Shown here one piece after another: positions 18,448 to 22,324 of a stretch of DNA of 38,898 nt. The translations under genes and the position numbers were made by a program. The DNA comes from Candidatus Rokubacteria bacterium 13_1_40CM_68_15. GTDB lineage: Bacteria > Methylomirabilota > Methylomirabilia > Rokubacteriales > CSP1-6. The DNA is taken from the NCBI GenBank assembly GCA_001917585.1, contig MNEG01000108.1, positions 1 through 38,898 of the forward strand. Direction: 5' to 3'. Under the pieces are notes generated by a model. It made no database searches. It was given only the letters and a program-made list of their open reading frames with translations, and was not told the origin of the DNA. Position 1 is the first letter of the stretch, and the number at the start of each line of letters is the position of its first letter.

Positions 18448-19355
18448 TGCGCATCGGCATCTCGCTCACCAGCGCCCACAAGGTTCGCGACCCGCGCGAG
18501 ACCGCGCGCTTCCTGGTCGAGCGGACGGCGGCCGCGCATCGCGCCGGCCTCGACTCGCTCTTCGTCGGCGACCACCACGCGACGCCGGGGCCCTACTATC
18601 AGAACGTTCCGATCATGGGCCGTCTGCTGGCCGAGTGGGGCGACAAGCCCGCCGGCTGTCTGTTCCTGCTTCCGCTCTGGAACCCCGTGCTCGTTGCCGA
18701 GCAGATCGGTACGCTGGCCGCCATCGCGCGCGGCCGCTTCGTCCTGCAAGCCGGACTGGGCTACGACGAGGCGCAGTTCCTCGCCATGGGGGCCAACATC
18801 AAGCAGCGGCCGTCGGCCTTCGAGGAGTCACTCGGTATCATCCGGCGCCTGCTCGCGGGCGAGGTCGTGAGCAGCGACCATCGCTTCCACGTCGAGAATG
18901 CGCGGCTGGCGCTGCGCCCGGCCGAGCCCGTCGAGGTGTGGATCGCCGGCACCGCGGAGCCGGCCATCGATCGTGCCGCCCGCCTCGCCGACGGCTGGCT
19001 GGTCTCCCCCGAGCCGACGTTCGAGCAGGCGAACACGGCGATCGCGTACTATCGCGCGCGCTGCGCGGCTCACAAGCGCACGCCGACGGCGATCGCCATC
19101 CGTCGCGACATCTACGTGGGTGAGTCCGCGGCCGAGGCCGAGAAGACCGCGCGCGCCGTCGTCGACCGCGGCTATCGCGGCATCGAGCCCAGTGCCCTGG
19201 TCTGGGGCGACGTGCCGACGGTCACGGAGAAGTTCAGACGGCTCGGGACGATGGGCTACACCGACGTCATCGTGCGCCATCTCGTCGACGACCAGGCGAA
19301 GATCATCGGCTCGCTGGCGCGGCTCGCGGAGGTCCGAAGAGCCCTCGCCACCTGA
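18444..19355 (+). CDS. LLM-class flavin-dependent oxidoreductase
   Basis: A 303-residue luciferase-like TIM-barrel protein that uses FMN or F420. Family patterns are AHRAGLDSLFVGDHH, NPVLVAEQIGTLAAIARGRFVLQAGLGY, FEESLGIIRRLLAGE and EVWIAGTAEPAIDRAARLADGWL. The start is ATG 18444 (a second ATG follows at once), overlapping the MBL stop. A longer reading back to 18285 is only the MBL gene in another frame. Whether it is a monooxygenase or an F420-dependent dehydrogenase cannot be read from sequence. The coupled MBL hydrolase suggests successive steps on one compound. Confidence 0.9.
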   Translation: MMRIGISLTSAHKVRDPRETARFLVERTAAAHRAGLDSLFVGDHHATPGPYYQNVPIMGRLLAEWGDKPAGCLFLLPLWNPVLVAEQIGTLAAIARGRFVLQAGLGYDEAQFLAMGANIKQRPSAFEESLGIIRRLLAGEVVSSDHRFHVENARLALRPAEPVEVWIAGTAEPAIDRAARLADGWLVSPEPTFEQANTAIAYYRARCAAHKRTPTAIAIRRDIYVGESAAEAEKTARAVVDRGYRGIEPSALVWGDVPTVTEKFRRLGTMGYTDVIVRHLVDDQAKIIGSLARLAEVRRALAT

Positions 19356-19363
19356 TCGTCGCT

Positions 19364-20488
19364 CTACGGTGACGACTCCGAAACTGTCGCCGGGGCGAAC
19401 CATCGCTGGGCAATGACCGTGGGAATGACAGCGCTCGCCACCACGACGCTGACGAGGACGGAGAACTGTGCACGGTCGAGGATCCCGGCATTGAGGCCGT
19501 AGAGCGAGGAGATCGTGCCGAAGGTCAGGCCCGTGGACATGAGCAGCGTCGTGAACATCGCGTCGTGGCGGACGTAGCGCCGGGCCAGCGGATAGACGCC
19601 GAAGAACTTCGTCACCTGCTTCACGGCGAAGAGCACGACGAGCAGACCGAGGTTGGCCCACACGAGGGCCAGTGACACGTTCATGCCCCCCCTGAGAAAG
19701 AAGAACGGTGTGAGCAACGCGAAGGTGACGACCCGGAACCGCCGCGTCAGCGCTGGATGCTCGTGGAAGATCCGGGCCAGTGCGAGGCCGAGGCCGAACG
19801 CCGGCAGCACAGCGTGGCTCTGCGCTTTCTCGGCGAAAAACATGAGTACGAGAAGCGCTGCCACCGCGCCCTTGATCTCCGGTTCGATGACCCGCTCGCC
19901 GTAGCGCGTGAAGAACCACGGTTGGAGGCGGACCATCGTCCAGATGACGAGGACCGACACAGTGAGAAACGGCAGGAGCCACCAGGTGGGACGGATGAAA
20001 AGCCCCGCCAGCGCGAGAGCGACGCCGAAGTCGGTGACGAACGTGGAGGCCATGATGAGTTTGCCGAGCGGCCTCAGCGTGAGCCCCGTCTCCACCAGGA
20101 CCGCGTAGACGACGGCCAGCGACGTCGTCGACAGCGCGACGCCGGCGATCTGGGCAGCCGGAGTCGTCCAGCCCAGCACCCCGGCGCAGAACGCCCAGGC
20201 GCCGACGAAGGGCGCGACGAACGACACGCCACCGATCAGAAGACTTTCGGTGAGCTTCTCGCGCATGATGCGGGGATCAACCTCGGCCCCGGCCAGGAAG
20301 GTCAGTAGGATGCTGCCAAACGACGCGAGGAAATCCATCCAGGGCGGGCTCGTCAGACCGAGCACATTGCCAGCGATCACGCCCAGAGTAATCTCGATGA
20401 GCGCGACGGAGACGCCCAGCTCGACTGACGCCAGACTCGCCAGCAGGATGAGAACGCCGGCGATGACCGCGATGAGGAGACTCTCCAT
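19364..20488 (-). CDS. cation:proton antiporter, CPA2/Na_H_Exchanger family, under a fluoride riboswitch
   Basis: Inner-membrane exchanger of 374 residues with about 11-12 hydrophobic segments and no C-terminal TrkA-N domain. Family features are ITLGVIAGNVLGL, FLAGAEVDPRIMREK (the helix-2/3 glycine and acidic turn) and STFVTDFGVALALAGLF with the acidic residue expected in the ion-exchange helix. ATG 20488 has GGAGG 5 bases upstream. The gene is preceded on the same strand by a fluoride riboswitch and terminator (20510-20592), so it should be expressed when cytoplasmic fluoride rises. Fluoride riboswitches are known to precede Na+/H+-antiporter-type genes as well as crcB and fluoride-type CLC genes. 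Its role may be to correct the proton or cation imbalance caused by HF entry, or fluoride export itself; sequence does not decide. Confidence 0.9.
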   Translation of the reverse strand: MESLLIAVIAGVLILLASLASVELGVSVALIEITLGVIAGNVLGLTSPPWMDFLASFGSILLTFLAGAEVDPRIMREKLTESLLIGGVSFVAPFVGAWAFCAGVLGWTTPAAQIAGVALSTTSLAVVYAVLVETGLTLRPLGKLIMASTFVTDFGVALALAGLFIRPTWWLLPFLTVSVLVIWTMVRLQPWFFTRYGERVIEPEIKGAVAALLVLMFFAEKAQSHAVLPAFGLGLALARIFHEHPALTRRFRVVTFALLTPFFFLRGGMNVSLALVWANLGLLVVLFAVKQVTKFFGVYPLARRYVRHDAMFTTLLMSTGLTFGTISSLYGLNAGILDRAQFSVLVSVVVASAVIPTVIAQRWFAPATVSESSP

Positions 20489-20509: not shown

Positions 20510-20540
20510 AAAAAACCCCTACCGGCACTGCCGGTAGGGG
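20510..20540 (-). terminator. intrinsic terminator forming the riboswitch expression platform
   Basis: On the minus strand, CCCCTACCGGCA (20540-20529) pairs perfectly with TGCCGGTAGGGG (20527-20516), followed directly by six U residues (20515-20510). The first arm contains the CCCC that the aptamer needs for its pseudoknot, so hairpin and ligand-bound aptamer exclude each other. It lies 22 bases before the antiporter ATG. It would also stop read-through from ilvD. Confidence 0.9.
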
Positions 20541-20592
20541 TCATCAGCCTCACGGTCGGTGAGGCGGTTTCAGGCGAACCCCATCGCCTTTT
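20535..20592 (-). promoter_or_regulatory. fluoride riboswitch (crcB motif)
   Basis: Read on the minus strand, the RNA has all parts of the crcB aptamer. The first hairpin is AGGCGA/UCGCCU (20589-20584 and 20577-20572) with loop UGGGGU. The linker GAAACC follows. The second hairpin is GCCUCAC/GUGAGGC (20565-20559 and 20553-20547) with loop CGACC. The conserved tail is UGAUGACCCCUAC. The GGGG of the first loop can pair with the CCCC of the tail, giving the known pseudoknot. The strings GCGAUGG, GUUCGCC, AACCGCC and GGCUGAUGAC agree with my memory of the motif consensus and of the Pseudomonas syringae example. The tail is also the first arm of an intrinsic terminator, the usual on-switch layout: fluoride binding prevents termination. 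Confidence 0.92.
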
Positions 20593-20650
20593 TCGTCTAC
20601 GACATCGTTATCGTCCTCAGCGCTAGTTGGCCCTTCTCAGTTGGGCATGG

Positions 20651-22324
20651 CTATCCGGTAACGGCGCCGTCCGACGCGCTGGACACCAGGCGCGCGTACT
20701 TGGCCATGGCGCCCCACGTGTAACGCGCCTTCGGCGGCTTGACCGCCTTGAGACGCTTCTTGAGCTCCGCCGCCGACACCTCCACGTCGAGGTGCCGCTT
20801 CTTGACGTCGAGCACGATGCTGTCACCGTCCCTGAGGGCGGCGATCGGCCCCCCGACCGCGGCCTCCGGCGCGACGTGCCCGACCATGAAGCCGTGGCTC
20901 GCGCCCGAGAAGCGGCCGTCGGTCATGAGCGCAACGGTGGGGCCGAGGCCCGCGCCCTGGAGCGCGCCGGTGACGTGGAGCATCTCGCGCATTCCCGGCC
21001 CGCCCTTGGGGCCTTCGTAGCGGATGACGATGAAGTCGCCCGCCTTGATCTTGCCGGTCTTGACGGCCACGAACGCATCCTCTTCGCGGTTGAACACGCG
21101 GGCGCGCCCGCGAAACACCTCGTCGCTGTGACCGGCGAGCTTGGCCACGCAGCCATCGGGCGCGAGGTTGCCCTTGAGGATGGCCAGACCGCCGTGGCCA
21201 GCCAGGGGATTCGACAGCTGACGGATTACCTTCTGGCCGGGCGCCTCGCGCGCCGCACGCGCCGCCTCGCCGATCGTTTTCCCGCTGACGGTCATCTCCT
21301 TCTCGTTGAGGAGTCCCGCCTGGAGTAGCCGCTTCGCCACCACGGCCATGCCACCAGCCTCGTGCATCTCGGGCGCGGTGTAGCTGCCCCACGGCTTCAT
21401 GTCGGCCAGGAGCGGCGTCCTGCGCGAGATGCGGTCGAACTCCTCGATGTCGAGCTGGACGCCCGCTTCCTTGGCCACGGCGAGCAGGTGGAGCACGGCG
21501 TTGGTGGAGCCGCCGGTGGCCATCACGCCGGCGATTGCGTTCTGCAGCGACTTCTTGGTGATGATCTGGCGCGGGAGGAGCCCCTTGCCGAGCAGGTCCA
21601 TGACCATGCGCCCGGTCTGGACCGCTACCTCTTCCTTGTGGACGTCGGGCGCGGGCACGTCATTGAAGCCCATCGGCGACACACCGAGCATCTCGAACGC
21701 CGTGGACATCGTATTCGCGGTGAACTGGCCACCGCAGGCGCCGTCGCCGGGGCACGCCGAGCACTCGATGGCGTGCAGCTCGCGGTCGTCGATCTTGCCG
21801 GCGTTGCGGGCCCCGATGGCCTCGAAAATGTCCTGAACCGTGAGGCGCCGGCCCTTGTACTCGCCGTAGAGGATGGACCCGCTGTAGAGCATCACGCTCG
21901 GCAGATTGAGCCGCGCCATCGCCATCACCATGCCCGGGATGGTCTTGTCGCAGCCCGAGATGCCCACGAAGGCATCGAAGAGGTGGCCACGCACGACCAG
22001 CTCGACCGAGTCCGCGATCCAGTCGCGGCTGATGAGCGAGGCCTTCATGCCCTCGGTGCCCATCGCGATGCCGTCGGTCACCGAGATGGTGTTGAACTCG
22101 ATCGGCGTGCCGCCGGCCGCCCGGATGCCTTCCTTCACCTTCTCGGCCAGCTTGCGGTGGTTCGAGTTGCACGGCGTCAGCTCGATCCAGCAGTGGGCGA
22201 CGCCGACGAGCGGCTTGCGCAGGTCGTCGTCGGTGAAGCCGACGGCGCGGAAGTAGGAGCGCGCGGCGGCGCGGTCCGTGCCATCGAGGAGGACGCGGCT
22301 CTTGTGCCGGGGATCGAAGGTCAT
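20651..22324 (-). CDS. ilvD: dihydroxy-acid dehydratase
   Basis: Third step of branched-chain amino acid synthesis: dehydrates 2,3-dihydroxy-isovalerate and its methylvalerate analogue to 2-keto acids. 557 residues, normal for IlvD. Fe-S cluster cysteines are visible in [40 protein letters not shown] and [36 protein letters not shown] and [20 protein letters not shown] are catalytic-domain signatures. ATG 22324 overlaps the stop of the upstream MaoC-like gene (ATGA), so it is translated from a mRNA starting with two MaoC genes. No ilvB, ilvC or ilvE is in the window. Its transcript probably ends at the terminator within the riboswitch region. Confidence 0.95.

Follow-up and report, generated by a model that had tools for sequence, protein, structure and literature searches.

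The window, a 38,898-nucleotide stretch of DNA that spans the full length of contig C158 in a 4.1-Mb Rokubacteria MAG (84% complete), carries on its minus strand a gene for a CPA2-like transporter of 374 residues (19364..20488, ATG at 20488), which was identified from its open reading frame, PF00999, an AlphaFold model and Foldseek. A fluoride riboswitch and an intrinsic terminator precede the gene on the same strand. Further upstream, outside the switch, lies ilvD (dihydroxy-acid dehydratase; 20651..22324, minus strand; TIGR00110, 684.6 bits). Since the next gene on the other side is convergent and ends at 19355 on the plus strand, the transporter gene is probably monocistronic.

The riboswitch and its terminator

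A cmscan of the whole window returned a single Rfam match, the fluoride riboswitch aptamer RF01734 on the minus strand (20597-20528). The match was full length (model positions 1-64) and scored 56.7 bits (E = 2.8e-13) against a gathering score of 34, bearing out the fluoride riboswitch of the initial annotation, and it is the only fluoride riboswitch in the 4.1-Mb assembly. The structural elements that had been described by eye are all present. Hairpin P1, GGCG-AUGGGGUU-CGCC, has its arms at 20588-20585 and 20576-20573 (Rfam structure line, fold and sequence), and P3, GCCUCAC-CGACC-GUGAGGC, at 20565-20559 and 20553-20547 (Rfam structure line and fold). The pseudoknot is formed by GGGGU at 20582-20578, assigned from the sequence, and ACCCC at 20541-20537, assigned from the sequence and from covariation in relatives. 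The conserved GAUGAC...CCUAC tail is also there.

The ACCCC strand lies, as initially annotated, in the 5′ arm of the terminator (20541-20510, minus strand), which was located by a terminator scan and by folding. Its stem pairs ACCCCUACCGGC (20541-20530) with GCCGGUAGGGGU (20526-20515) around the loop AGU, and is followed by a U tract to 20510. The arms form 12 Watson-Crick pairs, or 13 pairs if G-U is counted; the earlier count of six U was correct if the final base of the stem, itself a U, is included. The riboswitch region contained two terminator-like sites, compared with 0.3 in shuffled sequences, and the leader RNA folded to −51.3 kcal/mol, compared with −29.7 kcal/mol after shuffling (z = −6.5). 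A chance match or mis-call of the riboswitch was ruled out by the cmscan score, the fold z-score and the terminator scan.

The terminator ends ∼20 nt 5′ of the transporter ATG and the platform sits in the 5′ leader of the gene. A Shine-Dalgarno-like GGAGG (20497-20493, minus strand), 4 bases 5′ of the ATG, lies outside the terminator and the hairpins, which argues for control by transcription termination. The sequence shows mutually exclusive RNA structures, which fit a transcriptional ON switch. From its family membership, the aptamer is expected to bind fluoride with Mg2+, and we infer that fluoride brings about antitermination in the transporter leader. Without fluoride, ACCCC would be taken up by the 12-bp terminator and transcription would end 5′ of the transporter gene; with Mg-fluoride bound, ACCCC would be kept in the pseudoknot with GGGGU, so that the terminator would be blocked and the transporter made. 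A consensus search found no sigma-70 promoter 5′ of the aptamer, and only 53 nt (20598-20650) separate the aptamer from the ilvD stop codon. Thus, the leader may use another type of promoter or depend on read-through from ilvD.

The transporter clade and its linkage to fluoride riboswitches

The protein matches PF00999 with 113 bits (E = 1.9e-32; gathering score 26.2). Its AlphaFold model (pLDDT 87.8) has the NhaA fold, with broken helices at 120-123 (STTS) and 317-321 (MSTGL), an Asp in TM5 and a Lys in TM10, and Foldseek ranked NapA (E = 5e-11) and PaNhaP first and KefC next. In the alignment with NapA, D153 corresponds to D157, K294 to K305, and T152 replaces D156. Electrogenic Na+/H+ exchangers of the CPA2 type are recognized by an acidic residue at motif position 6 (DD) together with Lys at position 8 (PMC6181914); in the window protein position 6 is T152, and it is T or N in 97 of 97 aligned members. 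The label ‘CPA2-type’ in the initial annotation stands with respect to PF00999 and the NapA/KefC fold, but the protein falls short of the TIGR00932 (CPA2) cut-off (83.5 bits against 238.3; relatives score 94-106 bits) and belongs to a separate clade. 

A pattern search of genome contigs gave at least 577 relatives, of which the best 80, at 48-87% identity, were analysed. These 80 are spread over many lineages of bacteria and archaea, and the relatives at 84-87% protein identity are from Candidatus Rokubacteria/Rokuibacteriota. In a tree with 18 other CPA paralogs the transporters form one clade (support 0.98), whose signature is STTS in TM4, [T/N]D in TM5, K290, K294 and MSTGLTFG in TM11. Both lysines are invariant (97/97 aligned members), D153 is kept in 95 of 97, and Thr322 stands where most of the other CPA2 paralogs compared have the TM11 Glu. 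The conservation of MSTGLTFG in the 80 loci is partly selection, as this was among the search patterns; it is also invariant in a set of relatives collected without the pattern. R266 in TM9 was rejected as a hallmark because K or R occurs in only 73 of 97 members. Another 19 have V, Methanobacteriaceae and Methanoperedens sequences among them, and this split possibly marks two functional subtypes. No relatives of the transporter were found in phage records.

A fluoride riboswitch lies upstream on the same strand in 63 of the best 80 of the at least 577 relatives, or in 63 of 77 when only those with usable sequence upstream are counted. This number combines 54 with a two-block motif score above 20, where the background maximum was 17 (three riboswitch-like matches aside), with nine more found by Rfam at the gathering score. 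These loci made up part of the training set of the motif matrix, with pseudoknot pairing left out of the scoring, and across 807 kb a regex motif scan matched nothing on the opposite strand or at other places. All five pseudoknot pairs form in 52 of the 54 switches, with covariation between GGAGU/ACUCC, GGGGU/ACCCC, GAAGC/GCUUC and GAGGU/ACCUC. Within the home family, 19 of 24 transporters have a riboswitch no more than 2 kb upstream. By comparison, the reported shares under riboswitch control are just ∼15% for Flucs and ∼30% for CLC-Fs (PMC11139923). The clade is tied to fluoride riboswitches more tightly than the known exporters are, and it occurs mainly where both of these are missing. The proposed link of riboswitch and CPA2-like antiporter was upheld by Rfam, by folding, by the protein families and by its retention in these relatives, and the pairing of a fluoride riboswitch with a Na+/H+ antiporter is, as the initial annotation held, already in the literature (PMC11139923). 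We read the transporter as a member of a separate clade with the CPA2 fold, whose members would serve specifically in the response to fluoride.

Several further arrangements were seen. Variant switches in Acidobacteria and one Myxococcales MAG (L109 2946-3016, L112 4515-4582, L122 5749-5820, L124 3468-3537 and L131 5924-5992; Rfam 34-42 bits) have GGUG for GAUG and CCAAUGAC for CUGAUGAC. We take these changes to be A6 to G, U38 to C and G39 to A in the numbering of the T. petrophila structure, and together they suggest that the long-range reverse pair of the binding core covaries. In Rokubacteria and their relatives, DUF6062 (PF19538) is often the first gene behind a fluoride riboswitch, sometimes between switch and transporter (examples and similar cases are L233 2759-3859, L223 4153-5016, L010 1794-2636 and L228 8392-9381); the papers searched made no mention of it. 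Dynamin-like GTPases (PF00350) also lie directly behind fluoride riboswitches (L006 2-1477, L021 1588-2628 and L014, the last assigned by sequence likeness only). Locus L223 (G024:C6 28000-42000) has four fluoride riboswitches in ∼4.3 kb, around DUF6062, the transporter and other genes.

The transporter was also found in 38 plasmid records, 18 of them from Klebsiella. Four plasmid relatives, from Enterobacter, Rubrobacter, Caulobacter and Methylocystis, have a riboswitch, and riboswitch-transporter-uspA units are present in L234 (Enterobacter plasmid pY546), L235, L236 and L237. The Enterobacter unit adjoins mutS and an ars operon; on the Methylocystis plasmid, crcB-DUF190 follows the unit. 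Overall, the plasmid co-operons of the transporter include crcB, uspA, eno or mutS.

Fluoride exporters in carrier genomes

The initial annotation had noted that the antiporter has no crcB neighbour. This is correct and extends to the 84%-complete assembly as a whole, in which no CrcB (PF02537, E ≤ 10) and no CLC (PF00654) was found. Across the 57 genomes of the family, the transporter is present in 24 (15 of the close type and nine at 46-48% identity) and CrcB in 19, with both in two and neither in 16, so that a known exporter is dispensable in those genomes. Most of the genomes compared are incomplete MAGs; the exclusion between transporter and CrcB (Fisher p = 5.5e-4) was also seen in family genomes at least 90% complete (p = 0.0013). 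When CrcB was shuffled within genera, 6.0 genomes with both genes were expected against the two observed (permutation p = 2.5e-4), and in one genus the transporter occurs in three species, CrcB in six and both in none. The two genomes with both genes, G012 and G033, have a transporter of the 46-48% type that adjoins crcB in fluoride operons.

Over 119 genomes, transporter and CrcB again occurred together in only two (p = 8.6e-5), and depletion of CLC among carriers was not significant (p = 0.18). Outside the family, CrcB was found in five of 50 carriers, compared with 12 of 25 sampled genomes of other groups (p = 7e-4), and 12 of the 50 have some CLC. The published CLC-F signatures are GNNLI/GMGLI, GREGT/V and GEVTP (PMC11139923), and none of these occurs among the carriers’ CLC matches, a few of which are fragments that could not be judged. 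Fluc and CLC-F are themselves mutually exclusive; more than 85% of surveyed strains carry a known exporter and only ∼3% both known types (PMC11139923). The exclusion between transporter and CrcB thus resembles that between the accepted exporters.

Possible roles of the transporter and known systems

This distribution suggests that the transporter family fills the place of the fluoride exporters usually found. The genome has neither CrcB nor CLC, transporter and CrcB nearly exclude each other, and the CLC matches of other carriers show no CLC-F signature. The transporter is therefore a probable substitute for an exporter, by one of two routes, fluoride export itself or a Kef-like acidification. 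That the CrcB exclusion instead arises spuriously from MAG incompleteness and common descent, with a host exporter escaping detection, is very improbable. The host assembly is incomplete and most carriers are MAGs, which would favour such an artefact, but the exclusion holds in the most complete genomes and within genera, and there is no comparable depletion of CLC.

We modestly prefer fluoride export to acidification or a helper role. The main reasons are the substitution pattern and a lysine-rich core that is both more basic and less acidic than that of NapA, a shift that a path for anions might need. The combined reading, in which a fluoride ON switch controls a dedicated clade that replaces CrcB/CLC-F through proton-coupled fluoride removal (F− out, H+ in), is a good possibility, somewhat short of probable. 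In this reading, the ion transported by the clade would be fluoride. The clade keeps Asp153 and Lys294, which are essential in cation/proton antiporters and count against export, as does the lack of a universal K/R at position 266 (V in 19 of 97), and we know of no CPA member that carries a halide. The position beside crcB in G012, G033 and the Methylocystis plasmid also speaks against export, and fits a helper as well. In such a role, the antiporter would offset loss of proton-motive force and disturbance of pH while an exporter does the main work. This is the accepted reading and the published rationale for riboswitch-linked Na+/H+ antiporters (PMC11139923), and the plasmid co-operons agree with it. 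However, a helper would be expected to occur together with exporters, whereas a known exporter is missing from most carriers, and within a genus the genomes with the transporter and those with CrcB are largely separate sets; we consider this role unlikely here. Alternatively, fluoride may induce a K+ (or Na+)/H+ antiporter, and the entering H+ would lower the pH so that less HF is trapped as F−, replacing an exporter without any fluoride transport. NapA and KefC are the nearest families by sequence profile and by fold, the polar STTS of TM4 and the non-acidic position 6 are like those of K+-selective or electroneutral CPA2 proteins (PMC6181914), and the CrcB exclusion is explained as well. Intracellular acidification is also a yeast adaptation to fluoride, as reported by reference 88 of PMC11139923. 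The protein nevertheless has no KTN/TrkA regulatory domain, and its K290 and loss of the TM11 Glu were not found in the other CPA2 paralogs compared, making acidification rather unlikely in our estimate.

The broader proposition, that the clade evolved independently as a third class of fluoride exporter in bacteria and archaea, H+-coupled and with a CPA fold, and replaces CrcB/Fluc and CLC-F in many lineages, is possible but somewhat doubtful. Reviews name two prokaryotic classes of fluoride exporter (PMC11139923), and a 2026 paper still counts two (PMC13104614). A literature search, with subscription journals and preprints outside it, found no paper testing this antiporter clade. The pairing of riboswitch and antiporter is already known, and the part worth testing is the possible third exporter class. 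Should fluoride be the ion that the clade moves, a superfamily known for cations would include a new class of exporter, and fluoride resistance in many uncultured lineages would be explained; should the clade instead acidify the cell, it would protect against a weak-acid poison in a Kef-like way. In both cases, a single complementation assay can test the long-standing annotation ‘Na+/H+ antiporter for pH homeostasis’.

In 2010 the crcB motif was reported beside mutS and genes for the transport of K+ and Cl− (Weinberg 2010, PMC2864571). Na+/H+ antiporters, whose association with the riboswitch is credited to Baker 2012 as cited in PMC11139923, are the commonest riboswitch-linked genes after the exporters and have been explained by pH homeostasis (PMC11139923). 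As in those reports (PMC11139923; PMC2864571), a cation/proton antiporter homolog lies directly behind a fluoride riboswitch here; the difference is that it belongs to one clade with its own signature, usually in genomes without CrcB or CLC-F. The switch shares two stems, the pseudoknot, GAUGAC/CCUAC, the overlapping terminator and the ON logic with the crcB switches of Bacillus cereus and Thermotoga petrophila (PMC2864571), but its pseudoknot is G-rich (GGGGU/ACCCC) and the fold of the gene product it controls is not that of CrcB or CLC-F. The protein has the NhaA fold with broken TM4 and TM11 in common with NapA of Thermus thermophilus and with KefC, at ∼20% identity, and retains NapA D157 and K305 as Asp153 and Lys294. 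It differs in having Thr152 at the place of NapA D156, in Lys290, in Thr322 for the TM11 Glu, and in lacking the regulatory domain of KefC. With the CLC-F F−/H+ antiporters and the Fluc/CrcB channels, the clade shares control by fluoride riboswitches and mutual exclusion with other exporters, whereas its fold is unrelated to theirs.
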